The notes under the pieces: model-generated | What the model was told of the DNA's origin: nothing | Database searches by the model: none | The model's input: only the letters and a program-made list of their open reading frames with translations | DNA from: Marinobacter szutsaonensis | GTDB lineage: Bacteria; Pseudomonadota; Gammaproteobacteria; Pseudomonadales; Oleiphilaceae | Direction: 5' to 3' | Length of the DNA: 64,000 nt | NCBI RefSeq assembly: GCF_039523335.1 | Contig: NZ_BAAAFC010000001.1 | Location: 2,170,001 to 2,234,000 of the forward strand | Made by a program: the position numbers and the translations under genes | In this document: positions 5,152-19,074 of the stretch, piece after piece | How the letters are laid out: the number at the start of each line of letters is the position of its first letter | How positions within the stretch are numbered: the stretch's first letter is position 1

Positions 5152-6180
5152 GTGACAGACAAGGCAACGAACAACTCCGCGCCGGATATCAAGACCTTCC
5201 AGGGTCTGATCCTGGCTCTGCAGAATTTCTGGGCGCAGCACGGCTGCGTGGTTCTCCAGCCCCTGGATATGGAAGTGGGCGCCGGTACGTTCCACCCGGC
5301 CACCTTCCTGCGGGCGATCGGTCCGGAGACCTGGAATGCGGCCTACGTTCAGCCCAGCCGTCGCCCCACCGACGGCCGTTACGGTGAAAACCCCAACCGT
5401 CTGCAACACTACTACCAGTTCCAGGTAGTCCTGAAGCCGTCCCCGGACAACATTCAGGAACTGTATCTGGATTCCCTGCGGGCCCTGGGCTTGGACCCGC
5501 TGGTCCACGACATCCGTTTCGTTGAGGACAACTGGGAATCCCCGACCCTCGGCGCCTGGGGTCTGGGCTGGGAAATCTGGCTCAACGGCATGGAGGTGAC
5601 CCAGTTCACCTACTTCCAGCAAGTGGGCGGCCTGGAGTGCTATCCGGTCACCGGCGAGCTGACCTATGGTCTGGAGCGGATCGCCATGTACCTGCAGGGC
5701 GTGGACAGCGTCTATGACCTGGTCTGGACCGAAGGCCCGGATGGCGTCGTCACGTACGGTGACGTGTTCCACCAGCAGGAGGTGGAGATGTCCACCTACA
5801 ACTTCGAGCAGGCGGATACCGAGTTCCTGTTCCACAGCTTCGACGTGCACGAGCGCGAGAGTGCCCGGCTGATCGAGGCCGGCCTGCCGCTGCCGGCCTA
5901 TGAACAGGTGCTGAAAGCCTCCCACACCTTCAACCTGTTGGATGCCCGCCACGCCATCTCCGTGACCGAGCGTCAGCGTTTCATTCTGCGCGTACGTACC
6001 CTGGCCCGTGCCGTGGCCCAGGCCTACTTCGACAGCCGCCGCAAGCTCGGCTTCCCGCTGGCCCCGGAGGCCCTGAAACAGGAAGTGCTGTCTGCGGCAG
6101 AAGCCGCTGAGGCCAAGGCCAACGGCAAGAAGAAAGGCAAGAAAGCGAAGAAGGCACAGCAGGAACAGGGGAACGCATAA
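5152..6180 (+). CDS. glyQ: Glycine--tRNA ligase alpha subunit, with extra basic tail
   Basis: Catalytic alpha chain of the bacterial tetrameric glycyl-tRNA synthetase. The class II core is plain from [14 protein letters not shown] through the [13 protein letters not shown] and [17 protein letters not shown] stretches, and the chain ends the core at [13 protein letters not shown]. After that comes an unusual tail of about 35 residues rich in Ala, Lys and Glu ([12 protein letters not shown]), which makes the protein 342 residues against about 300 for the family. GTG 5152 is the start given; a shorter start near the conserved DIKTFQG cannot be excluded. glyS follows two bases after the stop, so the subunits are made together. 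Confidence 0.95.
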
Positions 6181-6182
6181 CC

Positions 6183-8264
6183 ATGGCTACACAGGATTTT
6201 CTGGTTGAACTGGGCACCGAAGAACTGCCCCCCAAGGCCCTCAAGCCACTGTCTGATGCCTTTACCCAGGGTATCGCCAAGGGCCTCGAAGATGCCGGCA
6301 TCGAGTTCGGCAAGGTCGAAGCCTTTGCCGCGCCGCGCCGACTGGCTGTCCGGGTCCGTGACCTGGCCGACGCCCAGCCGGACAAACCGGTAGAGAAGCG
6401 TGGCCCGGCGGTTAAAGCCGCCTTCGACGACTCCGGCAACCCGACCCGGGCGCTGACCGGTTTCGCCACCTCCCTGGGCATCACCCCGGACCAGCTCGAC
6501 ACCATGGAAACCGACAAGGGCGCCTGGGTGGTCTATCGCACCGTGGAGAAGGGCCGTCCGACCGTGGAACTGATGCCGGAACTGGTGGAACAATCTCTGG
6601 CCGGGCTACCCATTCCCAAGCGCATGCGCTGGGGCGCCCACCGCACCGAGTTTGTCCGCCCGGTGCACTGGCTGATCCTCCTGTTTGGCAACAAGGTAAT
6701 CGACACCCCGATCATGGGCCTGAAGCCCGGCAACACCACCCGCGGCCACAGGTTCCATTGCCCGAAGCCGCTGATCGTGCCCACCCCGAATGACTACGAG
6801 GTGGTACTCAAGCAGGAAGGCTACGTGCTGGCGGATTTCGCCGAGCGCCGGGAGCATATCCGTGCTGGTGTTGCTGCCCTGGCCGAGAAGGAAGCCGGCG
6901 GCAAAGCAGTCATCGACGAGGACCTGCTGGACGAGGTCACCGCCCTGAATGAGTGGCCGGTGCCGCTGATGGGCCGGTTCGAGGAACGCTTCCTGGAGGT
7001 GCCTGCCGAAGCGCTGATCTCCTCCATGAAGGAGCACCAGAAATACTTCCACGTGGTGGACAAAGACGGCAAGATGCTGCCGCTGTTCATCACCGTGGCC
7101 AACCTGGAGAGTAAGGATCCGAGCCAGGTCATTTCCGGTAACGAGAAGGTGATCCGCCCGCGCCTGGCCGATGCCGCCTTCTTCTACGACACCGACCGCA
7201 AGACCCGCCTGGAAGACCGCATTGAGTCGCTCAAGCCGATCGTGTTCCAGGAGAAGCTGGGCAGCATCTATGACAAGTCCGTGCGGGTAGCCGCACTGTC
7301 GAAAAAGATCGCCGAGGCGATCAACAGTGATCCGGCCCTGGCCGAGCGCGCTGCCATGCTGGCCAAGACCGACCTGGTCACCGAGATGGTGCTGGAATTC
7401 ACCGACCTGCAGGGCATCATGGGCCAGTACTACGCCGCCAACGATGGCGAGCACGAGGACGTGGCCAAGGCACTGAACGAGCAGTACATGCCACGCTTCG
7501 CCGGCGATGAGCTGCCCGGCACACTGACCGGCTGCGCCGTCGCCATTGCCGACCGGATCGATTCCCTGGTCGGCCTGTTCGGCATCAACCAGCCGCCTTC
7601 CGGCACCCGCGACCCGTTCGGACTGCGCCGCGCCGCGCTGGGCGTACTGCGCATCATCATCGAGCGTGAGTTGCCGCTGGATCTGCAAACGGTCTGCGAG
7701 TGGGCCGAAGAGGAGCACTCCGCAATTACCGAGCCCAACGTTGCTGACACAGTGGTGGACTACATGCTCGAGCGCTTCCGGGCCCACTATGAGGAGCAGG
7801 GCATCGGTGCCGAGGTCTACCTCGCCGTGCACGCCCGCCGGCCCACCAAACCGCTGGACTTCGATCGCCGGGTGAGGGCGGTGGAAGCCTTCCGCCAGCT
7901 GCCCGAGGCCCAGGCCCTGGCCGGCGCCAACAAGCGGGTATCCAACATCCTGACCAAGCAGGGTGGTGACAGCATTGGGGAAACCGTGGACGAGAACCTG
8001 CTGCAGGATGCCGGGGAAAAGACCCTGGCAGCGAAGGTGGAAGAGCAGGCACAAAAGGTTCTGCCGCTGTTCGAGCAGGGCGACTACGCCAGTGCGCTGA
8101 GCTCCCTGGCGAGCCTGCGGGAGCCGGTGGATACCTTCTTCGATGAGGTCATGGTGATGGCTGAGGACGAGGCGATCCGCAACAACCGCCTGGCCCTGCT
8201 CAACCGTCTGCGCAACCTGTTCCTGCGGGTGGCGGACATTTCCCTGCTGCCTACGGCTGGTTAA
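6183..8264 (+). CDS. glyS: Glycine--tRNA ligase beta subunit
   Basis: The 693-residue beta chain, which binds tRNA(Gly). The N-terminus FLVELGTEELPPKALKPL and the internal EEIxxAL-like and GTRDPFGLRRAALG segments are characteristic, and an anticodon-binding (DALR-like) C-terminus ends near the stop. The length is normal. ATG 6183 follows the glyQ stop by two bases. A strong hairpin lies just after the stop, and the next gene, trkH, converges on it. Confidence 0.96.
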   Translation: MATQDFLVELGTEELPPKALKPLSDAFTQGIAKGLEDAGIEFGKVEAFAAPRRLAVRVRDLADAQPDKPVEKRGPAVKAAFDDSGNPTRALTGFATSLGITPDQLDTMETDKGAWVVYRTVEKGRPTVELMPELVEQSLAGLPIPKRMRWGAHRTEFVRPVHWLILLFGNKVIDTPIMGLKPGNTTRGHRFHCPKPLIVPTPNDYEVVLKQEGYVLADFAERREHIRAGVAALAEKEAGGKAVIDEDLLDEVTALNEWPVPLMGRFEERFLEVPAEALISSMKEHQKYFHVVDKDGKMLPLFITVANLESKDPSQVISGNEKVIRPRLADAAFFYDTDRKTRLEDRIESLKPIVFQEKLGSIYDKSVRVAALSKKIAEAINSDPALAERAAMLAKTDLVTEMVLEFTDLQGIMGQYYAANDGEHEDVAKALNEQYMPRFAGDELPGTLTGCAVAIADRIDSLVGLFGINQPPSGTRDPFGLRRAALGVLRIIIERELPLDLQTVCEWAEEEHSAITEPNVADTVVDYMLERFRAHYEEQGIGAEVYLAVHARRPTKPLDFDRRVRAVEAFRQLPEAQALAGANKRVSNILTKQGGDSIGETVDENLLQDAGEKTLAAKVEEQAQKVLPLFEQGDYASALSSLASLREPVDTFFDEVMVMAEDEAIRNNRLALLNRLRNLFLRVADISLLPTAG

Positions 8265-8269
8265 GGCTC

Positions 8270-8302
8270 CACAAAGCGCCGGCATCTTGCCGGCGCTTTG
8301 TG
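8270..8302. terminator. Perfect 14-bp hairpin between glyS and trkH
   Basis: CACAAAGCGCCGGC (8270-8283), a five-base loop, then the exact complement GCCGGCGCTTTGTG (8289-8302). It sits between convergent stops, where a shared terminator is expected, but no run of T follows, so its efficiency as an intrinsic terminator is uncertain. Confidence 0.55.
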
Positions 8303-8324
8303 CATATCGTTCGCGAGACTCTTC

Positions 8325-9770
8325 TCAATGTCGCCAGAACTCGGGCGATAACATCACGAAAACACTCAACAGTTCCAACCGACCCAGGAGCATCGCTCCC
8401 ATCAGCACCCATTTCGCTGTGTCAGGCAGGGTTTGAAAGTTGCCAGCCGGTCCGATCGTATCTCCGAGCCCCGGTCCGACATTGGTCAATGCCGTGGCGG
8501 CTCCCGAGAGGCTGGTTACCAGATCCAGCCCCAGGAAACCCAGAATGGCGGTGACGAACGCCAACGTGGCAAGAAAAATGAATGAGAAAGCGACGCTCGA
8601 AGCGACGATATCGTCGCCGATAACCCGACCGTTGTAATTCCTGGCAAACACCGCCCGGGGATGCAAGAGACGGCGAACCTGCTCCTTCAGAAGGAGAATG
8701 GACAGCTGGAACCGGAAAATCTTCATGCCTCCGGCGGTTGAGCCGGAGCACCCACCAATGAAGGTGATGAACAGGAAGATCACCACCGCAAACGGTCCCC
8801 ACAACGAGTAATCCTCGGACGCATACCCTGTCGTGGTCACCACAGAGGTGACGTTGAACAAAGCGTGGACAAACGCCTCCAGCGGATCCGAAGCCTGATA
8901 GACAACACGATACAGGGCCAGGATGCTCGCGATCACCAGCAGCAAAACCAGGAAAAAACGCACCTGCTGATCCCGGAACAAAGGCTCCCGCTGGCCATGG
9001 ATAAATCGGACAAACAGAAAAAACGGCATGCCGCCGAGTGCCATGAACAGAGTTGACACCAGAAGGATCGCAGAGGAATCGAATTGCCCCATGGAACTGT
9101 CCGAAGTGGAGTAACCACCAGTGGAAACCGTGGTGAGCGCATGATTGAGGGCATTGAAGAACGTCATCCCGAGCACCCAGTAGCTCAACACGCACGCAAT
9201 CGTCATCCCGAGATAGATTCCGACCAGACTTCTCGCCAGGCTGTTGGTCCGGGGCACGACTTTCTCGCTCCATTCCGACGATTCGGTGGCAAACAGCCGC
9301 ATACCGCCAATCCGCAGGAACGGCAGGATGGCCACGGCCATCCCGATGATGCCGATGCCGCCCATCCACTGCATCAGCGAACGCCAGAGCAGGATATCAT
9401 CGGGCATGGCATCCAGGCCGGTCAGCACCGTGGATCCCGTGGTGGTAACCCCCGAGATACTCTCGAAAAAGGCATCGGTCACCGTCAGCTTCATATCACT
9501 CATCAGCAGCGGCAGACTGGAGAACAAAGGGATCAGGACCCAGGCAGACACCGTGAGCATGAACATCTGCTTCTGCTTAAGGGCATGCTTCTTTCGCCCC
9601 ACCACCATCAGAGCCGCTACCCCGAGGACAAAACAGATAACCGCGGATTTGACGAACGCCAGCCAGTCCGGCGTCTCGCCGAAAACCAGCAAATTCACGG
9701 GCAGGGTCATCAGGAAGCTGAGCAGGATCAGCAAAAAACCAAGGATCTGGACAATCGGTAGAATGGTCAC
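8325..9770 (-). CDS. trkH: Trk potassium uptake channel TrkH
   Basis: Integral membrane K+ channel subunit, about 481 residues, with many hydrophobic segments. The four pore loops with the filter glycines can be seen: TTTGSTV, VSTGGYSTS, TTTGYASE and NVGPGLG. It works with TrkA, encoded at 3.6-5.0 kb. The frame is open up to 9971, but the first part would run through the tRNA-Pro gene and is not channel-like. The start is therefore placed near GTG 9770, where the first membrane segment (ILPIVQILGFLLILLSF) begins. The exact start is unsure by about 10-20 codons. Confidence 0.92.
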   Translation of the reverse strand: MTILPIVQILGFLLILLSFLMTLPVNLLVFGETPDWLAFVKSAVICFVLGVAALMVVGRKKHALKQKQMFMLTVSAWVLIPLFSSLPLLMSDMKLTVTDAFFESISGVTTTGSTVLTGLDAMPDDILLWRSLMQWMGGIGIIGMAVAILPFLRIGGMRLFATESSEWSEKVVPRTNSLARSLVGIYLGMTIACVLSYWVLGMTFFNALNHALTTVSTGGYSTSDSSMGQFDSSAILLVSTLFMALGGMPFFLFVRFIHGQREPLFRDQQVRFFLVLLLVIASILALYRVVYQASDPLEAFVHALFNVTSVVTTTGYASEDYSLWGPFAVVIFLFITFIGGCSGSTAGGMKIFRFQLSILLLKEQVRRLLHPRAVFARNYNGRVIGDDIVASSVAFSFIFLATLAFVTAILGFLGLDLVTSLSGAATALTNVGPGLGDTIGPAGNFQTLPDTAKWVLMGAMLLGRLELLSVFVMLSPEFWRH

Positions 9771-9924
9771 TGCAAGCCGGAGCTCCAGGTTGCAACGGGA
9801 GAGAATAACAAACGCGCAAGTTATACACCTACCGGCGACAGATTCCCACCGAAGAGGAACGGTTTCTGCCGAAAAAAATCGTCGCGGCGCCCCGACAGGG
9901 ACTGGTAAATTGCAAACGAATCCG

Positions 9925-9930
9925 TATAAT
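9925..9930 (+). promoter_or_regulatory. -10 element of the tRNA-Pro promoter
   Basis: A perfect TATAAT at 9925-9930 lies 13 bases before the mature tRNA 5' end, the expected place for a stable-RNA promoter with a very short leader. No good -35 is seen at 17 bases (CTGGTA). Confidence 0.5.
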
Positions 9931-9943
9931 ACCGGCCGTTGTT

Positions 9944-10020
<77 letters not shown>

Positions 10021-10116
10021 CTTTCCCGCCTTAGCTGTACATCCGGTTTATAATTCGCAAATATCGTTTCCTTATGGGTTCTTACACCCGAAGCCCATGA
10101 ATTTCTGTATCCTTTA

Positions 10117-10135
10117 TTAATCTGCTAGAGATTAA
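10117..10135. promoter_or_regulatory. Inverted repeat just upstream of the MazG-like gene
   Basis: Perfect seven-base inverted repeat TTAATCT, five-base centre GCTAG, AGATTAA. Its right edge touches the AAAGGGG ribosome-binding region (10134-10140) of the gene starting at 10148. This suits an operator for a dimeric regulator or a small RNA hairpin hiding the ribosome site. A TATAAT hexamer at 10049-10054, without a good -35, is a possible promoter about 70 bases further upstream. Function is inferred from position only. Confidence 0.45.
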
Positions 10136-10147
10136 AGGGGTATTTTG

Positions 10148-10468
10148 ATGAATGAGGCGATTGCCCGACTACGTCAGTTCCGGGACGATAGAGACTGGAA
10201 ACAATTCCACAACCCAAAAGACCTATCGCTGGCACTGAGTGTTGAGGCGGCGGAACTGCTCGAGCTTTTCCTGTGGAAATCACCGGAACAGGCTGATATC
10301 GGTAAAGTGAAGGAAGAGCTGGCCGATGTCATCGCCTATGCATTGCTACTGGCAGACAGCTATGAACTTGACGTCGAGCAGATTGTTCTCGACAAGATTG
10401 CGCTAAATGAAAAGAAATACCCTGTCAGCAAGGCTAAAGGTACCGCCAAGAAATACACCGAGCTATGA
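10148..10468 (+). CDS. MazG-like nucleotide pyrophosphohydrolase (RS21-C6/dCTPase type)
   Basis: A 106-residue all-alpha NTP pyrophosphohydrolase. It carries the metal-binding pattern of the superfamily: EAAE in helix 2 (Glu33, Glu36) and EELAD in helix 3 (Glu57, Asp60). The FHNPKDLSLALSVEAAELLELFLW stretch (split here as FHNPKDLSLA and LSVEAAELLELF) matches the RS21-C6-like branch that splits (d)NTPs to NMP plus pyrophosphate. ATG 10148 has a good AAAGGGG site; a TTG one codon earlier is less likely. Its last bases overlap the start of the helicase gene (ATGA), so the two proteins are coupled. Such enzymes clean nucleotide pools; in this setting a defence or stress role is an inference. The base composition is visibly less GC-rich than its neighbours. 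Confidence 0.85.
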   Translation: MNEAIARLRQFRDDRDWKQFHNPKDLSLALSVEAAELLELFLWKSPEQADIGKVKEELADVIAYALLLADSYELDVEQIVLDKIALNEKKYPVSKAKGTAKKYTEL

Positions 10469-12675
10469 GTCACTCGCCGATGGTAGAAATTCAGCGCTAC
10501 CCCTTCAGCCGGGAAGCCCTGAACGACCTGCGCGACAATGCCTTTGCCGCGGGCAACTGGCCACTGGTATACGTTCTCAGCGATGAAAAGCACCGGCGCG
10601 CCTACATCGGCGAGACCACCGATACGCTCACCCGCATGAGCACCCACCTGAAACATAATGAGAAGCAGCTGCTAACTGCAGTTCACCTGATCACCAGCGA
10701 ATATTTCAACAAATCAGCAACTCTGGATGTGGAATCTTTGCTGATCAAATACATGGCCGCCGATGGCAAATTCACCCTGCTGAACGGTAACCTGGGGCTG
10801 GCTGATCACAACTATTACCAGCGCGATGCACTTTATGAAGAGGTATTCCGGGAAGTCTGGAACCGGTTGATTGCCAAGGGTGTTGTATCCCGCACCCTGG
10901 ACCATCTTGATAATTCCGATGTCTTCAAATATTCCCCCTACAAATCCCTGTCATTCGATCAGCGCCAGGGACTGCTCACCATACTGCATGAACTGACCAA
11001 CCCCGGTGTCCAGAACATAGTGGTGGAAGGGGGAGCCGGAACCGGCAAGTCGGTGCTGGCCATCTTTCTGTTCAAACTACTAAATTCGGAAGATCACCAG
11101 ATTAATCTACGGGAATTTTCGGACGAAGAGGCTGAGATCCAGTCTCTGCTGAAGTCACTCAGAGAATCCCTGCCCAAACCGAAAATGGCGCTGGTGGTGC
11201 CCATGACCTCCTTCCGAACCACCCTGAAGAAGGCGTTCAAACACGTTTCCGGACTCAGCCCGGACATGGTGATCAGCCCGTCCGAGCTGACCAAACAACA
11301 CTACGATATTGTACTGGTGGACGAATCCCACCGTTTGCGCAAACGAAAGAATCTGGGTGCGTATTTTGGCAGTTTTGACAAAGCCTGTAAGGCTCTGGGC
11401 ATGGACAAGAATACCTGCAGTGAAGTGGACTGGGTCTCCCAGCAGGCGGACAAGGCAATTTTTTTCTACGACGAAGGCCAGTCCATCAAACCCTCCGATG
11501 CCGATGTGGAAGTGTTCCGTCGCCTGAAATCTGCCAAGGGCTCGGTAACACACCGATTGCTGTCCCAGTTCCGGGTCAAGGCCGGTCAGCCCTATGTGGA
11601 GTTCGTGGATAAGTTGCTCAACGGACGCCTTGATGACGGCGTGGTATTCACCGCCAAAAACTACGATTTTGAAGTGTTCGATTCGCTCAGTGACATGGTC
11701 AGTACTATTAACGAGAAAGAGGAGCAGGTCGGACTATCTCGACTGATTGCTGGCTACTCCTGGCCTTGGGCGTCCAAGAAGGATGCTGAGGCCTATGACA
11801 TAGTCATCGACGATATTCGCCTGCGCTGGAATAGCACCAACACCGACTGGATCAATAAGGAAGGCTCCCACAGGGAGGTCGGCTGCATTCATACCACACA
11901 GGGTTACGACCTGAACTACGCCGGCATTATCTTCGGTGAAGAGATCCGGTATGACCCGGAAAGCCAGTCCATCGTGATCGAGAAAGACAACTACCATGAC
12001 CGCACCGGTGGACAGGGCATCAAAGACCCGGCAGAGCTGAAGCAGTACATCATCAACATCTACCGCACCATTATGCTCCGCGGTATCCGTGGAACCTTTG
12101 TCTATGCTTGTGACAAAGCGCTGCGGGATTATCTGAAACAACACATTCCCGCCCACGCCGCCAATGCCAAAGAGCGTGAATCCGCAAACGCGGCTGATCT
12201 AGAACCCTATGTAAACGCCGTGCCGCTATTTGACCTGCAAGCCGCAGCAGGGGATTTCGGTACACTCAATGATGTCAGTGACCTTGACCCCGGTAAACAC
12301 GATGACTGGGTCGCTGTGCCCGAGGGAATCCGCGTAAATAAAGACATGTATGCCTGCCGAGTCTTCGGCGAATCCATGAACCGCGTAATCCCCAATGGTG
12401 CCCTGTGCCTGTTCAGAACCGACCGCGGCGGCTCCCGAAACGGCAAGACAGTTCTGGTTGAATGCCTAGACAGCATTGCTACCGACTCCGGCTCACGGTA
12501 CACGGTGAAGGTGTATGAAAGCTTCAAAACTGGGGACGAAAACGGCTGGCGCCATACCCATATTCAGCTGAAACCTAATTCATACGATGACAGCTTTAAG
12601 TCCATTGAGCTGACGGATGAGGAAGCTCATCAGTATCGTGTGGTAGGGGAGTTCTTTTGTGTGATCGACCAGTGA
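10465..12675 (+). CDS. GIY-YIG-like nuclease / Schlafen-group-3 (DUF2075) helicase / S24-like fusion
   Basis: A 736-residue three-part protein. (1) Residues about 30-115 resemble a GIY-YIG nuclease: VYV at 35-37 in place of GIY, YIG at 47-49, an Arg and His downstream, Glu90 in DVESLLIKY, and LLNGN. (2) Residues about 160-560 form a DUF2075/SLFN-g3 helicase: Walker A GGAGTGKS (189-196), Walker B VLVDESH (283-289), FYDEGQSIKPSD, a SQFR motif near 367-370, HTTQGYDLNYAG and MLRGIRGTFVYACD. (3) Residues about 613-734 look like a LexA/UmuD (S24) C-terminal domain: GESM with candidate nucleophile Ser637, GKTVLVE, and YTVK with candidate general base Lys682. No DNA-binding HTH is seen. The gene overlaps the MazG-like gene by four bases. 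A defence or damage-response role is inference. Confidence 0.85.
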   Translation: MSHSPMVEIQRYPFSREALNDLRDNAFAAGNWPLVYVLSDEKHRRAYIGETTDTLTRMSTHLKHNEKQLLTAVHLITSEYFNKSATLDVESLLIKYMAADGKFTLLNGNLGLADHNYYQRDALYEEVFREVWNRLIAKGVVSRTLDHLDNSDVFKYSPYKSLSFDQRQGLLTILHELTNPGVQNIVVEGGAGTGKSVLAIFLFKLLNSEDHQINLREFSDEEAEIQSLLKSLRESLPKPKMALVVPMTSFRTTLKKAFKHVSGLSPDMVISPSELTKQHYDIVLVDESHRLRKRKNLGAYFGSFDKACKALGMDKNTCSEVDWVSQQADKAIFFYDEGQSIKPSDADVEVFRRLKSAKGSVTHRLLSQFRVKAGQPYVEFVDKLLNGRLDDGVVFTAKNYDFEVFDSLSDMVSTINEKEEQVGLSRLIAGYSWPWASKKDAEAYDIVIDDIRLRWNSTNTDWINKEGSHREVGCIHTTQGYDLNYAGIIFGEEIRYDPESQSIVIEKDNYHDRTGGQGIKDPAELKQYIINIYRTIMLRGIRGTFVYACDKALRDYLKQHIPAHAANAKERESANAADLEPYVNAVPLFDLQAAAGDFGTLNDVSDLDPGKHDDWVAVPEGIRVNKDMYACRVFGESMNRVIPNGALCLFRTDRGGSRNGKTVLVECLDSIATDSGSRYTVKVYESFKTGDENGWRHTHIQLKPNSYDDSFKSIELTDEEAHQYRVVGEFFCVIDQ

Positions 12676-12690
12676 GGCATCCACTCACTG
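12670..12690. terminator. Small hairpin over the convergent stops of the helicase fusion and blc
   Basis: CAGTGAG (12670-12676), seven-base loop, CTCACTG (12684-12690): a perfect seven-pair stem that spans both stop codons. There is no T run on either side, so termination is only a possibility. Confidence 0.3.
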
Positions 12691-13197
12691 CTCGACCAAA
12701 ATCAACTCCCCAAGCTCAAACCCCTCTGCCTCGGCCCGGGCCTTGAACGTCTCCAGCACTGCGTCACTCACCTCCGGCGTGCGCGACATCAGCCACAGGT
12801 AATCCCGGCTGTAGCCCGTCAGGTAAGCCGTTGAATAGTCTTCATCCAGCCCGAATACCACGTAGGAGCCGTAAAAGGGGCCGAAGAAGGACACTTTCAG
12901 GTGGCCCACATCGCTGTCACCCACAAACACGGCGTGGCCTTCCGCCTCTTCCCACTCGCCCTCTTCGGCGTTATAACCCCGGTTGATGACTTTGATGCTG
13001 CCGTCCTCGTTCAGGGAGTATTCGGCGGTCACCTTGCTCAGGCCTTCCTCGAAGGAATGGTCCAGTCGGGCGATTTCGTACCAGGTGCCCAGGTAACGGT
13101 CTTTGTCGAAGCCGGTGACCGGTTCAATGCCTTTGGGCAGGCCGGTGCAGCCAACGAGTACCAATAGAGTGGCGGCAATCACGGGCAGGGCTTTCAT
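12685..13197 (-). CDS. blc: Outer-membrane lipocalin lipoprotein Blc
   Basis: A 170-residue bacterial lipocalin anchored in the outer membrane and thought to bind lysophospholipids or fatty acids. The signal sequence ends in a lipobox with Cys17 (VLVGC). The lipocalin fold signature follows (YLGTWYEIARLDHSFE, the G-x-W motif), with YSRDYLWLMSR near the end. It lies 13 bases beyond a phospholipase D-like lipoprotein gene on the same strand, which suggests a small envelope-lipid operon (cls-like gene first, blc second). Confidence 0.93.
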   Translation of the reverse strand: MKALPVIAATLLVLVGCTGLPKGIEPVTGFDKDRYLGTWYEIARLDHSFEEGLSKVTAEYSLNEDGSIKVINRGYNAEEGEWEEAEGHAVFVGDSDVGHLKVSFFGPFYGSYVVFGLDEDYSTAYLTGYSRDYLWLMSRTPEVSDAVLETFKARAEAEGFELGELILVEQ

Positions 13198-13210
13198 TGG
13201 GTTACTCCTA

Positions 13211-14779
13211 TTACAGCAGGGATTCGATCGGCATCAGCGACCAGAAAAACACCAGCATTCGCTTCAACGGACCGGTTCCCGGTTCATAGCTGTAGGTCAC
13301 CGTCCGGTGTTCCTGTTGTTCCAGCCAGCGCAGTTCCCCATCCTCGTTCAGCACCACTCGATAAGCGGTAAACCGCACCTGCTGGTCAAATTCCCGTTCC
13401 AGCACCCTTGCCAGTTCCGGGCTCTCGATCACGAAGCCCAGTTCGGTATTAAGGTGAATGGATCGGGGATCGAAATTAAACGAGCCGACGAACAGGGTCT
13501 CACCATCAACCGCGAAGGTCTTGGCATGCAGGCTGGACGCCGAACTGCCCATCATGCCGGTTTGCAAGTCCTGCTCCCGCGGGGGTTCGTCATCGAGCCT
13601 GCGCATCTCCCACAGCTCGACACCCGCCCGCAACAGGGGTTTGCGGTACTTGCTGTAACCGGCGTGCACCAGCGCCACGTCGTTGGCTTCGAGGGAGTTG
13701 GTCAGTACCCGCACCTCAACCCCACGTTCTTCCAGTTTCCGGAACAGTTCGACACCGGCATCCCGGGGGATGAAGTACGGGGAAACAAGGGTAATGCTCC
13801 GTTCGGGGTCATCCAGCGCCCGGGCCAGTTGCCGGCTGAGCAGGTCTTCTCTGTTGTTCCCGCCCAGAACCTTGGCGGGATCATCGCTGACCATGACCAC
13901 CGGCGCCCAGTTGAAGGCCAGTTCCCTGGCCAGCAAGCTGCGCAGGAACGCCGAATCCTCCAGGGTACGGGCATAGACCGAGGCGGCATCACTGTTCTCC
14001 GTGGTCCTGAATGACTCGGCCAGTGCCGCCAGCGGTTCCGGGCCGGGCTCGCCCAGGATCTGCCGGGCCGTTCGTGCATAACTGCTGGCCCAGTATCGGT
14101 CAAAATCCCGGGAGACTTCATCCACGGCCGGACCGATAGCCAGCACATCCAGGTCCGCAAACATCGCGCCCTGGGCGGCACCGAAGTATTCATCCGCGAT
14201 GTTGCGGCCGCCAATGATGGTGGCCTGGTTGTCCGCGGTGAAGGACTTGTTGTGCATCCGGTAATTGAGGCGCCGGAAATCCGTGAAGTAGCCCAGCCAC
14301 TTGGGATTACGGACCACAAAAGGGTTGAACAGGCGGATCTCGATGTTGGGGTGCTGACTCAAGGCCGCCAGGATGTCATCCATGCCGGCGATGCCGTTGT
14401 CATCCAGCAACAGCCGGACCCTGACTCCCCGTTCCGCCGCCCGGTACAGGGTGTACAGCATCAGAGTGCCCGTGGTGTCCGGGCGCCAGATGTAGTACTG
14501 GACATCCAGGCTGGCTTCGGCCGCCTCGGCGAGCAGGGCCCGGGCGGCAAAGGCATCGTAGGGGTCCGGTAGCAGGACAACGCCACTGTGGCCGGGATGG
14601 GCCTCGGTTTTCGGGGTAATGGCCTGGCCCAGGACGGTTTCCCGGGTCTGGGACTGGGGAATGGATCGGCTGTCAGGCCGGTCGGCCAGCGGTGGCAGGG
14701 CGCAGCCCGTTAGCAACAGCAGGAGGGTCACACCCATCCATACTCCGGCCCGAGGCACTAAAAGATTTTTTGCGGTCAA
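13211..14779 (-). CDS. clsC: Phospholipase D family lipoprotein, cardiolipin synthase C-like
   Basis: A 522-residue protein with a lipoprotein signal (LLLLTGC) and two HKD catalytic motifs: HNKSFTADNQATIIGGRN near 204-221 and HAKTFAVDGETLFVGSFNFD near 418-437. This pair, the spacing and the length match the ClsC (YmdC) branch, which makes cardiolipin from phosphatidylglycerol and phosphatidylethanolamine. The partner YmdB is not seen, so the exact reaction is inferred. blc follows on the same strand. Confidence 0.85.
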   Translation of the reverse strand: MTAKNLLVPRAGVWMGVTLLLLLTGCALPPLADRPDSRSIPQSQTRETVLGQAITPKTEAHPGHSGVVLLPDPYDAFAARALLAEAAEASLDVQYYIWRPDTTGTLMLYTLYRAAERGVRVRLLLDDNGIAGMDDILAALSQHPNIEIRLFNPFVVRNPKWLGYFTDFRRLNYRMHNKSFTADNQATIIGGRNIADEYFGAAQGAMFADLDVLAIGPAVDEVSRDFDRYWASSYARTARQILGEPGPEPLAALAESFRTTENSDAASVYARTLEDSAFLRSLLARELAFNWAPVVMVSDDPAKVLGGNNREDLLSRQLARALDDPERSITLVSPYFIPRDAGVELFRKLEERGVEVRVLTNSLEANDVALVHAGYSKYRKPLLRAGVELWEMRRLDDEPPREQDLQTGMMGSSASSLHAKTFAVDGETLFVGSFNFDPRSIHLNTELGFVIESPELARVLEREFDQQVRFTAYRVVLNEDGELRWLEQQEHRTVTYSYEPGTGPLKRMLVFFWSLMPIESLL

Positions 14780-15039
14780 TCGCTTCTCCGCATGGGTATT
14801 TCAGGAAGAATAGGATCAGATGCTGACAATATACTGCACATGCGCATCCGAACCTTAATAAAACCATACCGGGGAATTATTCCGGGTTGAGCGCGCCCGA
14901 CGCCAGGAACACCCGGCATTTCTGGCACCCCTTATATATTTATTTGATATAACGTTATACCTCTTGGTTTGTTAGTATTTGATCAATATCAACACTGGCG
15001 AGCCGGTTGATCAAACAATGACAAAAAGAGGTTCAAGGC
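14780..15039. other. AT-rich spacer between divergent clsC-like gene and SQR
   Basis: Holds the upstream signals of both genes. The half near SQR contains a perfect FNR/ANR palindrome (14979-14992) and a weak -10 (AACAAT, 15014-15019). The region around 14930-14965 is nearly pure A/T with ATAACGTTAT symmetry. No coding sequence was seen. Confidence 0.7.
14979..14992. promoter_or_regulatory. Perfect FNR/ANR-type box upstream of SQR
   Basis: TTGAT, CAAT, ATCAA: an exact match to the FNR/ANR/DNR consensus TTGATNNNNATCAA. A start site 41.5 bases from its centre would fall at about 15027, with a weak -10 (AACAAT) at 15014-15019 in the right place. This is class II activator geometry for the gene at 15040. 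The AGAGG ribosome site (15027-15031) would then sit at the very 5' end of the RNA. Confidence 0.75.
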
Positions 15040-16296
15040 ATGAGTTTGAATGCAGCACAGGAGTTCGATAAAAGACACACGGTCCTGATTGTCGGTGGCG
15101 GAGCCGCCGGTGTATCGGTGGCGTCCAGCCTTCACAAGCGGGACCGCTCCCTCGACATCGCGGTAGTGGAGCCCTCATCCACCCATCATTATCAGCCCGG
15201 GTGGACCATGGTTGGCGGCGGCGTTTTCCGTCCCGAGGTGACCTCCAGACCCATGAAAGAGGTCATGCCCTCGTTCGTCAGCTGGTACCAGCAAAAGGTC
15301 CTCTCCGTTGACCCGGACCAGAATCGCATCCAGCTCGCCGACGGATCCTGGATGACCTACGAGACCCTGGTACTGGCTCCGGGCCTTGAACTGAACTGGG
15401 GCGCCATCGATGGTCTGGAGGAAGCCCTCGGCCGGAACGGTGTGACCTCAAACTACCGTGAGGGCATGGCCAGCTATACCTGGGAAACCGTTCAGCGGCT
15501 GAAAAATGGCCGCGCACTGTTCAGCCAGCCCCCCATGCCGATCAAGTGTGCCGGCGCCCCCCAGAAAGCCATGTACCTGTCGTCGGACTACTGGCTCCGA
15601 CATGGCGTGCTGAACAATCTTGATATCCAGTTCCACAATGCTGGAGCCGTGTTGTTCGGCGTTCCCGATTACGTGCCGGCACTGGAGTCCTACATCCGGA
15701 AATACGGTATCGATGTCAATTTCCAGAGCAACCTGGTGGCAGTAAATGGTCCGGCCGGTAAAGCCACATTCCGCATGACTGATGCCGAAGGCAATACCCG
15801 GGATGAAGAGGTCGGTTTCGACATGCTGCACGCGGTGCCGCCACAGCGGGCGCCGGAATTTGTCCGGGAATCCGCCCTGGCCAATGAGGGCGGCTGGCTG
15901 GACCTGGAAGACGACACCCTGCGCCACAAACGTTTCAGCAATATCTTCGGTCTCGGGGATGTCAGCGGGACCGGCAATGCCAAGACCGCGGCAGCCGTGC
16001 GCAAACAGGCGCCGGTGGTGGCGGATAACCTGCTGGCTACGGTACGCAACCAACCTCTCAAGGCGGCCTATCTGGGCTACGGTTCCTGTCCGCTGACGGT
16101 CGAGAATGGCCGGATCGTTCTGGCGGAATTCGGCTATGGTGGCAAGCTGCAGCCCAGTTTCCCGAAGTGGCTCAACGATGGCACCAAGGCAACGCGGGCG
16201 GCCTGGTGGTTGAAGGCCAAGCAGCTACCGGGCCTTTACTGGCACGGCATGCTTAAGGGTCATGAGTGGCTGGCGAAGCCCGCACCCCGAGGGTGA
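15040..16296 (+). CDS. sqr: Sulfide:quinone oxidoreductase, type II-like
   Basis: A 418-residue FAD flavoprotein related to mitochondrial SQRDL and bacterial type II SQR. It oxidises sulfide and passes electrons to the quinone pool at the inner membrane. Seen: FAD-binding VGGGAAG (18-24), HHYQPGWTMVGGG (49-61), the redox Cys170 in PIKCAGAPQKAMYL and Cys350 in YGYGSCPLTVENG (the two active-site cysteines of the family), FGLGDVSG as the second FAD motif, and an amphipathic C-terminus. ATG 15040 has the AGAGG site. The upstream FNR/ANR box suggests induction when oxygen is low. No persulfide dioxygenase or rhodanese lies beside it; a globin gene converges on its end. Confidence 0.85.
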   Translation: MSLNAAQEFDKRHTVLIVGGGAAGVSVASSLHKRDRSLDIAVVEPSSTHHYQPGWTMVGGGVFRPEVTSRPMKEVMPSFVSWYQQKVLSVDPDQNRIQLADGSWMTYETLVLAPGLELNWGAIDGLEEALGRNGVTSNYREGMASYTWETVQRLKNGRALFSQPPMPIKCAGAPQKAMYLSSDYWLRHGVLNNLDIQFHNAGAVLFGVPDYVPALESYIRKYGIDVNFQSNLVAVNGPAGKATFRMTDAEGNTRDEEVGFDMLHAVPPQRAPEFVRESALANEGGWLDLEDDTLRHKRFSNIFGLGDVSGTGNAKTAAAVRKQAPVVADNLLATVRNQPLKAAYLGYGSCPLTVENGRIVLAEFGYGGKLQPSFPKWLNDGTKATRAAWWLKAKQLPGLYWHGMLKGHEWLAKPAPRG

Positions 16297-16306
16297 GGGC
16301 AACGGC

Positions 16307-16699
16307 TCAGTAGGCCCCGCGGATAAGATCAATCCCGGGGTTCAGGACGTCACGCCAGGCCTTGCCGAGCTCTGGTGTGTAATCGGGATCGTGCTGGCGG
16401 ACCGTTTTCAGCAGGGCCTCGAGCCACAGCGTGTACCACTCCGGCTTGATGTCATAGTGGTTGCGGTTATGGCTCTCGCCCAGGGCACGCAGCTTACGGT
16501 CCGACATACCGCGGGCGTGCAGGATCAGCTGCATGATGCCGTTTCGCAACAGGTGGCGCTGGGCTTCCATGTCGGTTTTCAGGAAGCGGTTGCGGATGGT
16601 GTCGGAACTGGACATGAAAAAGTCGTAGAAATCGACGAAAAAATCATCCTTGCGGCAGCAGCGTCCATAACTCTGGAAAACGAGATCCGTGTTGTTCAT
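16307..16699 (-). CDS. Single-domain globin
   Basis: A 130-residue protein of the globin fold, with FFVDFYDFFMSSSDTIRNRF as the A/B-C region and a proximal-His candidate, His77, in LGESHNRNHYDI, followed by the PEWYTLWLEALLKTVRQHDP helix typical of free-standing proteobacterial globins. It probably binds O2 or NO; no reductase domain is attached. I chose ATG 16699 because the family begins there; an upstream extension of 28 residues is not globin-like. It converges on sqr with ten bases between stops, and both proteins deal with diatomic or sulfide chemistry, but a functional link is only inferred. Confidence 0.82.
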   Translation of the reverse strand: MNNTDLVFQSYGRCCRKDDFFVDFYDFFMSSSDTIRNRFLKTDMEAQRHLLRNGIMQLILHARGMSDRKLRALGESHNRNHYDIKPEWYTLWLEALLKTVRQHDPDYTPELGKAWRDVLNPGIDLIRGAY

Positions 16700-16830
16700 T
16701 TGCAGTCTGTGTCCTTGTCGAAGTTGAAACCAGTCTGATAAGGGCACGCATTCTAGTTCTGCAAATAAACTTTTCCATAGCAAAATGTAACTACAGTTGC
16801 TCGAGATAGTTTATTTTTGCATATGGATCT

Positions 16831-19074
16831 TTAAAACCACCAGCGGGGCAACAGATCCCGCACCTGCGGACGCATGAATCGGTCATCGATCAGCCAGATC
16901 ACACCCTGGTCCTCCGGAGTGCGGATCACCCGGCCGGCGGCCTGGGCCACTTTCCGGAGCCCGGGAATCAGGTAGGTGTAGTCATAGCCGGCGCCGAAGC
17001 GATTCTGTAGCCGTTCCTTGAGTACCTCGTGCCACGGATCGAACGGCGGCAGCCCCAGGGTCGCCACAAACGCCCCGATCAGCTGCTCACCGGGCAGATC
17101 GATCCCCTCACTGAACACCCCACCAAGCACGGCAAACGCCACGCTCGGCTCCGGCTGCCGGAACTCCGCCAGGAAGGCCTCTCGCTCAACCTGGCTCATG
17201 CCCGGTGTCTGACAGCGCCGGGGGATGTCCGGAGCCTGCTCGGCAAGCGTCTCACTGACCGACCGGAGATACTGGAAGCTGCTGAAGAACGCCAGGTAAT
17301 GGCCGGGCCGCTCCCGGAACTGGCCGGCAATGATGTCGGCGATCGGTACCCGGGACGCTTCCCGGTGCGCCTGGCGGGTACTGATCCTGGGCGTAAAGTG
17401 GACCTGCAGCTGGTCGGCGCTGAAGGGACTGGGAAGAGAGGTGAAGGCGGTGGTTTCCGGCAGACCCAGCAAATCCCGGTAGTAGATGCCGGGGCTCAGG
17501 GTGGCCGAGAACAACAACACCGAGCCGGCGGCGGAGAAGCGTTCGCGCAGGAAGTCTGCCGGGATCAGGTTTTGAATGGTCAGTGAGGCCCGGCCGCGAC
17601 CGGCACGCCGGAATTCACACAGGGAGTGGTCACCGAAGCTGTCCGCCAGCTTCATGAAGCCGACGCTCTCGAACAACAGTTCCTGAAGCGCCAGGTCCGG
17701 CGGGTTGTCCGCCAGGTAATCAGTCAGGGTGGACACCAGCCCCTGCAGGCTGCCGATCAGACTCGACGGTAAAGCCTCGAGAAACACCGGCACAGCCGGA
17801 TCCACATCCTGGTCACGGATCAGGGTTTGCCAAGCGCGCGCGGTGCGGTCCAGCGCCTTCTTCAGCACCTTCGGGGCGGTTTTCTTTACCCGCAACAGTC
17901 GCTGCTGTTCAAGCGTTACCGAATACATGCCCCGGGCCCGATCCACCAGGTTATGGGCCTCATCCACCAGGATTGACGCCTGCCACTGATTCTGGCGAAC
18001 CAGACCATAAAGCAGGGCGGACTGGTCAAACATCCGGTTGACGTCGCCGATGACCAGGTCACTCCAGCGGGCCATCTCCTGAGCCAGGAAATAGGGACAG
18101 ATCTCATGGCCCGCGGCAATACGCGCCAGTTCGGCCCGGGTAAGTGTCCCGGATTGGACGGCCTCGGCTCGGGCATCGGGCAGGCGATCGAAAAACCCTT
18201 TCGCCAGAGGACAGGAGTCACCATGGCAGGCCTTGTCCGGATGCTCGCAGGCATCGTCCTTCGCCACCAACTCCAGAACCCTGAGCGACCAGTCAACAGA
18301 CCCGTCCTGGGCGGCCCTGAGTTTATCCACGGCGTCCAGGGCCAGCTGTCGGGCGGTATTGCGGCAGGTCAGATAGAACAGGCGGTCCTGGTCGGCCCGG
18401 GCCATCGCCATCAGGCCCGGAAACAGTGTCCCCAGGGTTTTGCCAAGACCGGTGGGCGCCTCCAGCAACAGAGTGCCGCCGGTCATGGCATTCTTGTAGG
18501 CGGTTTCGGCCAGTTGCCGCTGGCGCGGCCGGAAGTCGGCAAAGGGAAAATTCAATCGGGCGAGGGCAGCATTACGCTGGTTCCGGTGGTGTTCTTCCTG
18601 TTCGGCCCAGGCCCGAAATCGTCGGCACAGCTCTTCGAGTTCCTGCCAGAGTTCATCGGCATTGGCGGTTTCGGCAAGCTGACTTTCCTTGTCCCGACCG
18701 GTGTCGTAATACACCAGCACCAGCTCGATCTTTTTCAGCTTTTCCTGTTTGCACAGCAGGGCACCGTAGGCCCGCAACTGGGCCCGGTGCAGGGCCCGCT
18801 GGTGTTCCCTTATCCGGGCAAGGTCGCCCCGGTGGGTCTTGATTTCCTCCAGCCGGCCACGATGGGGATCATAAACGTCCGCTCTTCCGGAAAGCTTTAT
18901 TTCCAGGCACTCACCGGTCAGTAAATACTCGCTTTTGTAACCGTAGCCCCGGCGGGACTGGATGGTCTGGTGGCCGGCAATGCCCTCCTCGGAGGAGGGT
19001 GCCGGGGTGTACCGGAAGTCCAGGTCCCCGGCCCGGGCGGCAAACTCGCACAGGGTACGCACCGCCGCCTTCAT
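16831..19074 (-). CDS. PD-(D/E)XK nuclease fused to XPD/DinG-like Fe-S helicase
   Basis: A 747-residue two-part protein. The N-terminal part (about 50-110) has a PD-(D/E)XK core: Asp66 in GRADVYD, Glu77-x-Lys79 in EEIKTH, and Gln99/Tyr103 (Cas4/RecB type). The helicase part has Walker A EAPTGLGKT (205-213), four cysteines placed as in the XPD/DinG Fe-S cluster (Cys276, Cys283, Cys288, Cys326), the DEAH box (371-374) and C-terminal VAQAAGRVIRTPEDQG with RVIR as motif VI. It should unwind DNA 5' to 3' and may cut it. Its ATG overlaps the stop of the FAN1-like gene (ATGA), pointing to joint action in crosslink or recombination repair. Confidence 0.88.
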   Translation of the reverse strand: MKAAVRTLCEFAARAGDLDFRYTPAPSSEEGIAGHQTIQSRRGYGYKSEYLLTGECLEIKLSGRADVYDPHRGRLEEIKTHRGDLARIREHQRALHRAQLRAYGALLCKQEKLKKIELVLVYYDTGRDKESQLAETANADELWQELEELCRRFRAWAEQEEHHRNQRNAALARLNFPFADFRPRQRQLAETAYKNAMTGGTLLLEAPTGLGKTLGTLFPGLMAMARADQDRLFYLTCRNTARQLALDAVDKLRAAQDGSVDWSLRVLELVAKDDACEHPDKACHGDSCPLAKGFFDRLPDARAEAVQSGTLTRAELARIAAGHEICPYFLAQEMARWSDLVIGDVNRMFDQSALLYGLVRQNQWQASILVDEAHNLVDRARGMYSVTLEQQRLLRVKKTAPKVLKKALDRTARAWQTLIRDQDVDPAVPVFLEALPSSLIGSLQGLVSTLTDYLADNPPDLALQELLFESVGFMKLADSFGDHSLCEFRRAGRGRASLTIQNLIPADFLRERFSAAGSVLLFSATLSPGIYYRDLLGLPETTAFTSLPSPFSADQLQVHFTPRISTRQAHREASRVPIADIIAGQFRERPGHYLAFFSSFQYLRSVSETLAEQAPDIPRRCQTPGMSQVEREAFLAEFRQPEPSVAFAVLGGVFSEGIDLPGEQLIGAFVATLGLPPFDPWHEVLKERLQNRFGAGYDYTYLIPGLRKVAQAAGRVIRTPEDQGVIWLIDDRFMRPQVRDLLPRWWF

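Follow-up and report, generated by a model that had tools for sequence, protein, structure and literature searches.

The gene pair and its domains

The window analysed here is a 64,000-nucleotide stretch of the Marinobacter szutsaonensis genome (contig NZ_BAAAFC010000001.1, positions 2,170,001 to 2,234,000). Between a tRNA-Pro gene and a minus-strand, presumably lipocalin-like gene, it carries two genes coding for a small MazG-like nucleoside triphosphate (NTP) pyrophosphohydrolase and for a fusion protein in which a GIY-YIG nuclease domain, a Schlafen group 3 (SLFN-g3, DUF2075) superfamily 1 (SF1) helicase and an S24 module of the LexA/CI type follow one another (Table 1). A preliminary description, made from the sequence alone, had read this pair as an under-described defence or stress system. 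The overlap of the two genes by ATGA that it reported is confirmed, and all four domains are upheld by motif conservation together with profile or structure comparison; the S24 and GIY-YIG domains, on which the proposal hung, both match by sensitive profile or structure comparison. NCBIfam has no informative name for the genes.

The MazG-like protein matches PF12643 at 8.1e-18 (64.9 bits against a cut-off of 27), with weaker profile matches to dUTPase_2 and MazG, and the ExxE ... ExxD residues of its metal site are kept in 41/41 sequences. To judge from the sequence, its substrate would most likely be dCTP or base-modified dCTP; depletion of deoxynucleoside triphosphates (dNTPs) by the enzyme is possible.

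For the fusion protein, we call type A the GIY-YIG form found in the window, sister form the proteins with another N-terminus that also end in S24, and type C those that have the sister N-terminus and are devoid of S24. The GIY-YIG motif residues are kept in all 118 type A proteins covering these sites, and the Asn in 119/119. Across 17 sequences with identities as low as 27%, the catalytic set (Tyr...Tyr-x-Gly, Arg, Glu) is invariant and the Asn nearly so. Profile comparison matched the domain to I-TevI (8e-5), UvrC (0.005) and T4 EndoII (0.009). A GIY-YIG Pfam match at 1e-3 was obtained for 28 of 63 aligned proteins, 53 of which are type A, and the window protein falls just under the Pfam cut-off. 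The helicase matches PF09848 at 4.1e-64 over residues 184-550 (217.5 bits against a cut-off of 24), as do, at 1e-3, all 63 aligned proteins, and the Walker residues G194 and K195 (A) and D286 and E287 (B) are present in 120/120 type A proteins. Comparison of its predicted fold returned UvrD, Dda, SLFN11 and one chain of the Gabija AB complex, and Foldseek results for the models of the window protein and of the sister form were mainly helicases. The family is large: of 7999 candidates scored, 5611 match at E ≤ 0.001.

The pair is under strong purifying selection. Against four orthologues, the ratio of nonsynonymous to synonymous substitution rates (dN/dS) was 0.02-0.05 for MazG, 0.03-0.06 for GIY-YIG, 0.06-0.08 for the helicase and 0.09-0.29 for S24; it was 0.3-1.5 for an 18-codon stretch preceding the S24 module.

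The S24 module and its relatives on restriction-type proteins

Structure comparison gave lambda CI bound to RecA as the best fold match of the S24 module. Residues A594, A595 and G596 are found in 120/120 type A proteins, and the Ala-Gly site, Ser and Lys are all present in 115/116 type A proteins of at least 700 amino acids (aa). An S24 Pfam match at 1e-3 was obtained for 59 of the 63 aligned proteins, which include three S24-less type C proteins; here too the window protein lies just under the cut-off.

Apart from the fusion protein, the genome yielded a single PF00717 member, its own LexA, to which the module has no significant BLASTP similarity (E 0.28, six-sequence database). In the same database it matched the modules of the sister form at 1e-34 to 1e-44 and that of a 1981-aa YprA/DruE-like protein of another genome of the genus (G008) at 4.6e-29. 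On this comparison, the module is not a recent transfer of the genome's LexA. Moreover, because the sister-form modules are nearer to the YprA/DruE-like one (44-47% identity) than to type A (40-43%), the pattern of identities suggests shuffling of the module between protein types.

Searching long proteins with the S24 module as query, we obtained 138 matches, of which the 120 listed (P0121-P0240) were analysed and classed by their Pfam domains, the ResIII-type class being the remainder. These comprise 44 YprA/DruE-like proteins, 47 ResIII-type proteins (~1200 aa), 16 HIT-hydrolase helicases, 9 IIG/ISP methylase-nucleases and 4 HsdR proteins. The Ala-Gly-Ser-Lys set is complete in 118/120 of them, and in 117/120 no more than 20 residues separate the end of the module from the C-terminus. 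When type A and these other listed architectures are taken together, the two residues preceding the predicted cut are Ala-Ala in 240/240 proteins; in the sister form they are Ala-Ala in 9/11. In two genome samples used throughout, 398 genomes of the phylum and 124 of the genus, a profile of the module (E ≤ 1e-12) matched in 5 and 22 genomes, respectively, always on these helicase-type proteins. By sequence similarity, then, one S24 subfamily, apart from the genome's LexA, ends the SLFN-g3 helicases and also YprA/DruE-like, HsdR, IIG/ISP, HIT-helicase and ResIII-type proteins, which to our knowledge of the searched material is new. Such a recurring tail suggests a built-in switch that would turn these enzymes off (or on) upon DNA damage.

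At the locus of the 1981-aa G008 protein, neighbouring genes match type IIG/DrmMI, MkoA and MkoB. At L075:201-17044, an IIG/DrmMI-like methylase, an S24-tailed YprA/DruE-like helicase, and MkoA-like and MkoB-like genes stand in one run.

Pairing with MazG and distribution

The second gene was matched in 22 of the 124 genus genomes, G008 by its S24 part only. In every one of the other 21, comprising 12 type A and 9 sister-form genomes, the MazG-like gene directly adjoins the helicase; the genes overlap by 4 bases in type A and are separated by a few bases in the sister form. This bears out the coupling that had been proposed. A PF12643 gene is present in 23/124 genus genomes, and the hypergeometric P for co-occurrence is 8e-22, shared ancestry not corrected. 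In the phylum, 13/398 genomes match the helicase at E ≤ 1e-3 and 9/398 at E ≤ 1e-34. MazG is adjacent in all nine of the latter (eight upstream, downstream in G102; broken in G089) and also beside a truncated helicase remnant in G070. The homologues are thus patchily distributed (21/124 in the genus plus the S24-only genome; 9/398 in the phylum at E ≤ 1e-34), and the restriction to core genes that would have spoken against an accessory system is not what we find.

The association has limits on both sides. MazG does not stand beside every DUF2075 protein: a lineage of 658-666 aa (L088-L091, L094-L096, partial L098) is without it in the fetched flanks, as are the helicases of L077, L079, L081, L084 and L035, the last being a second, more distant helicase of G350. 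Nor is MazG exclusive to this partner, PF12643 occurring in 68/398 phylum genomes; among the 28 newly fetched PF12643 loci (of 30 listed), a helicase profile match lies in reach in 6. Nucleotide-cleaning enzymes next to nuclease-helicases are therefore recurrent, not universal.

In the genus, MazG-like genes with another partner occur in G534 and G461, overlapping in both cases a gene of ~330 aa that has no Pfam match at 1e-3. These two partners (L120:491-1890, L121:1411-2753) are mutually related (28%, 2e-47), and their C-termini look HNH nuclease-like. From its sequence, this arrangement looks like another type of MazG-nuclease pair.

Mutual exclusion of type A and the sister form was considered and rejected: they occur in 12 and 9 of 124 genomes, none with both, with P 0.39. 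Relatives were matched in 4/50,697 phage records and 39/72,556 plasmid records, all below 60% identity and none over more than 80% of the query. In viral contigs, 28 stretches fit a search pattern and none codes for a relative.

The sister form and its neighbours

The sister form (~795 aa) keeps the helicase and S24 and has a different N-terminus with a conserved D...ExK (D80, E98, K100 in A2), which we take to be PD-(D/E)XK-like. Its structure model has a mean predicted local distance difference test score (pLDDT) of 69.2 and a predicted template modelling score (pTM) of 0.46. Since Foldseek returned zero rows confined to the N-terminus, the assignment rests on these three residues. Type C proteins (L026, L027, L029) share this N-terminus.

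At the nine genus sister-form loci (L059-L067), a 1282-aa cluster gene lies directly downstream in 7/9 and an 880-aa SMC-like gene upstream in 5/9 (broken into pieces in a sixth), with both present in 4/9. The one member scanned of the 1282-aa cluster matches type IV methyl-directed restriction (PADLOC, 1.5e-111); the one scanned of the SMC-like cluster matches LmuB weakly (3.6e-15). An additional 374-aa gene is found at 6/9 of these loci and a 957-aa gene at 4/9.

In Bacillota, the order at L082 is MutT, MrcB_N, MazG, DUF2075 (with no GIY-YIG match), then the type I restriction-modification genes for an N-6 methylase and a specificity subunit; at L080, on a mobilizable plasmid, it is NTP pyrophosphohydrolase, PLD-DEAD-DUF3427 helicase, MazG and GIY-YIG-DUF2075. 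A PLD-DEAD-DUF3427 helicase immediately precedes the MazG-DUF2075 pair at L080:2324-7719 and at L083:2477-7731.

Genomic site of the pair

The type A pair occupies the same region in 10/12 genus carriers (with the tRNA lying 4.5 kb off in L049), which agrees with inheritance at a single site in the genus. The tRNA gene had been taken as a sign of mobility, a suggestion we abandon: the region is common to 10/12 type A carriers, and the window holds no second tRNA 3' end (≤3 mismatches), so that a tRNA-borne mobile element is rejected. In G002, the tRNA-Pro site (L130:1130-1240) shows the initial MazG codons joined to the final helicase codons, which is best read, from the junction sequence, as a deletion that would have removed both genes together. 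The glyS of G002 is the closest among the 37 other genomes searched (97%), and this genome has the sister form elsewhere.

Table 1. Features of the gene pair and its surroundings in the window (positions numbered from the first nucleotide of the window)
Feature	Position	Strand	Basis or remark
MazG-like all-alpha NTP pyrophosphohydrolase, 106 aa	10148..10468	+	PF12643 profile match
GIY-YIG / SLFN-g3 SF1 helicase / S24 fusion protein, 736 aa	10465..12675	+	profile and structure comparison
GIY-YIG nuclease domain, ~residues 30-110; Y36, Y47, G49, R57, H61, E90, N107	10552..10794	+	
SLFN-g3 (DUF2075) SF1 helicase core, ~residues 161-565	10945..12159	+	
Walker A, residues 189-196	11029..11052	+	G194, K195 conserved
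Walker B (DESH), residues 286-289	11320..11331	+	D286, E287 conserved
S24 (LexA/CI-type) autoprotease module, residues 584-736	12214..12672	+	
Predicted cleavage motif A593-A594-A595 / G596	12241..12252	+	aligned to VAAG in the LexA of this genome
Predicted nucleophile Ser637	12373..12375	+	118/120 type A (one Leu, one gap)
Predicted general base Lys682	12508..12510	+	118/120 type A (two gaps)
tRNA-Pro (CGG), neighbour, not counted as part of the system	9944..10020	+	
Tentative conserved promoter-like element 5' of the pair	10102..10133	+	alignment
Lipocalin-like gene (presumed)	12685-13197	-	

By alignment, Marinobacter loci have sequence similar to the promoter-like element 5' of the pair, and so does Nitrincola L014, in which the pair lies at another site. 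Between glyS and tRNA-Pro, window positions 8325-9776 hold one gene, presumably TrkH-like; matching DNA lies 3' of glyS in L131 and L132, and is missing after glyS in L130, L133, L145 and L146.

A proposed off switch and its alternatives

The reading we prefer, tentatively and a little short of an even chance, is that the two genes form an accessory restriction or defence cassette with a RecA-triggered off switch working through S24 self-cleavage, the MazG-like enzyme acting on dCTP. Its parts differ in firmness. An accessory restriction or defence-type role of the pair is very probable; that the S24 module actively cleaves itself is judged likely from its conserved residues; RecA is the probable trigger, with rather less assurance; and a switch towards off is favoured only slightly over one towards on. 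That the system is under-described and of an accessory, defence type agrees with the MazG linkage, the swap of N-terminal nucleases and the restriction-type genes near many sister-form loci. Computation itself establishes the structure of the genes, their domains, the conserved residues, the pairing, the exchange of N-termini and how widely the S24 subfamily is spread; cleavage, its RecA dependence and direction, the MazG substrate and anti-phage activity are predictions.

According to this proposal, the helicase would load onto DNA that is damaged, replicating or modified, where its nuclease would cut, to the harm of phages or plasmids. Upon damage to host DNA, RecA filaments would bind the S24 module and lead to self-cleavage between A595 and G596, separating a 595-residue nuclease-helicase from a presumed dimerising tail. 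The -AAA then exposed at the C-terminus would resemble the end of cleaved LexA, -VAA, which is recognised by ClpX, and the enzyme would be dismantled, amounting to a built-in restriction alleviation. By removing dCTP or base-modified dCTP, the MazG partner might either cleanse the nucleotide pool, which would spare host DNA as a target, or starve the phage.

A broader form of the proposal, more speculative and somewhat doubtful, is that a transferable self-destruct module of the LexA type has been acquired, at the C-terminus or close to it, by many otherwise unrelated restriction and defence nucleases, namely HsdR, type IIG/ISP, ResIII-type, YprA/DruE-like and HIT-helicase proteins and the GIY-YIG and PD-(D/E)XK SLFN-g3 helicases. 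A RecA-triggered cut would bare an -AA ClpX degron and the enzyme would be removed on damage, with MazG, as a second self-protection, preventing the incorporation of modified or excess dCTP into host DNA.

The opposite direction, put forward in the preliminary description, in which the S24 tail keeps the nuclease-helicase inactive until RecA filaments, raised by phage replication or DNA damage, lead to cleavage and free it to destroy phage or cell DNA while MazG depletes dNTPs, is rather unlikely. It would employ the identical intact cleavage set; the S24-less relatives suggest that the 1-595 part is functional alone, and the freely evolving stretch before S24 (dN/dS 0.3-1.5) behaves as an exposed linker would. 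Set against this, the same tail is carried by HsdR, type IIG/ISP and ResIII-type enzymes, and restriction enzymes act on entering DNA; with such enzymes as carriers of the tail, an off switch fits at least as well as activation. Restriction enzymes become a danger to the host once damage to its DNA gives rise to unmodified or single-stranded sites. Type I enzymes are reported (PMC3874165, PMC11109961) to be shut off after DNA damage, a known need of these enzymes, in the case of EcoKI through ClpXP degradation of HsdR, and a RecA-responsive tail on HsdR, IIG and helicase-nucleases would most simply be an off switch of the same sort.

Two other explanations are less probable. A tail that does not cleave in service, and instead joins monomers or docks on RecA to bring the enzyme to RecA-coated DNA, agrees with the RecA-bound CI domain as best fold match and with the dimerisation of S24 C-terminal domains, as known for this family. 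Such a module would not require Ala-Gly, Ser and Lys, yet these are kept in 115/116 type A proteins (at least 700 aa) and 118/120 of the listed others, and we regard this explanation as distinctly unlikely. Least likely appears a non-defence, housekeeping role, in which the nuclease-helicase would repair damage and its partner sanitise dNTPs. The location among core genes of one region in 10/12 genus carriers and the strong purifying selection speak for it, whereas its patchiness (21/124 genus genomes and 9/398 phylum genomes at E ≤ 1e-34), the apparent loss from G002 by deletion, the restriction-type genes adjoining most genus sister-form loci and an S24 module common to restriction-type enzymes speak against it.

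Several observations weigh against the off switch or against parts of the cassette that we propose around it. S24-less relatives exist, namely type C and Bacillota GIY-YIG forms, so that the cleaved product could be active, which favours an on switch or no effect unless the product is degraded. Conservation of the -AA end may reflect a need of the cleavage reaction and not a degron function, and 2/11 sister-form proteins have VA instead; the S24-type Ser is absent from one type A protein (P0074) and the Gly from two other proteins. It should be noted that the conservation and architecture counts of S24 proteins are search-biased, since the search that yielded them compared long proteins with an S24 query. 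As for the trigger, PMC11109961 reports that EcoKI alleviation is not an SOS response function, so a RecA trigger is not transferable from that case; a LexA-like protein departing from the RecA rule is also known (PMC7101444), and together these reports leave a RecA trigger not assured. An SOS promoter for the pair was rejected, as no LexA box was found near 10148 and the whole window has 13 matches (≤1 mismatch) against 18.75 expected by chance.

The surroundings also supply points of this kind. Two of the nine sister-form loci (L065, L066) are without the type IV-like gene, L065 also without the SMC-like gene, and among eight plasmid or phage loci, MazG lies near the helicase in four (L078, L080, L082, L083) and is absent in the other four. 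On reading the open reading frames at 6000-18000, no methyltransferase gene was recognised beside the pair, which is thus probably not a classical restriction-modification unit. For type A flanks, we compared 84 neighbours of at least 150 aa from nine loci (near-duplicate L017 and the tRNA-Pro loci L048-L056 excluded) with a control of 84 proteins, the first of 96 taken from seven stretches of 18 kb. The flanks matched 56 PADLOC families (25 listed) and the control 11; by reading, this corresponds to ~8 distinct matched proteins against 4-6, those of the control being mostly housekeeping look-alikes. The flanks include phage-integrase and Fic Pfam matches and the SoFic, RmrA/T, PDC-S02, DpdF and AbiEi models. 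Given that the control also matched 11 families, we do not claim defence enrichment around type A. Defence-gene counts in these flanks do not clearly exceed those of the control.

Should the preferred reading be true, a self-cleaving LexA-type tail common to several classes of enzyme would be a simple answer to how restriction nucleases spare the host chromosome, a matter so far understood in part, and would couple DNA damage to defence enzymes with no transcriptional step in between. How restriction enzymes discriminate invading from host unmodified DNA is called unresolved in PMC3874165. The proposal also offers a concrete functional hypothesis for the large DUF2075 family.

Comparison with known systems

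In the open literature searched, we found no paper joining DUF2075 with GIY-YIG, MazG or a defense system, and none joining MazG with a LexA-like or S24 protein; DUF2075 is mentioned there in the texts of five papers, never in their titles or abstracts, and the titles and abstract openings include none about the MazG / GIY-YIG-helicase-S24 pair. No PADLOC model matched the MazG gene and none spanned the whole fusion. Its Nhi (7.5e-11) and AbiO (3.9e-11) models match over helicase residues 162-421 only, at profile positions 183-375 of 470 and 254-372 of 468, respectively, short of the whole protein; GIY-YIG, S24 and the MazG partner lie outside these matches. PDC-S41 matches sister and type C proteins (the best stretch of L034 being N-terminal, residues 4-295, 2.9e-17) and PDC-S14 matches residues 9-116 of the window protein (6.6e-9), both weakly and partially.

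Schlafen group 3 helicases (PF09848, DUF2075) have the same SF1 helicase core as the fusion protein. Gabija, Hachiman and Druantia are also nuclease-helicase defence systems, but their nuclease modules differ from those described here. The one Druantia III paper searched (PMC13192584) does not mention S24 or MazG, and has LexA only for SOS inhibition and in references; the main text of a YprA paper (PMC12458937) contains no S24, LexA, MazG, peptidase, DUF2075 or GIY-YIG. The best named solved relatives of the MazG-like protein are RS21-C6 and dCTP pyrophosphatase 1 (~2e-19); unlike these, the enzyme here is coupled to a nuclease-helicase. The S24 module shares its fold, Ala-Gly site and Ser-Lys dyad with LexA, lambda CI and UmuD; here, in contrast, it follows a nuclease-helicase and no DNA-binding repressor is attached. 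Finally, type I restriction-modification alleviation, as in EcoKI, has the same purpose as that proposed here, the shut-off of a nuclease during host DNA damage. Unlike in EcoKI, the proposed switch would be encoded in the enzyme itself, as its S24 tail.

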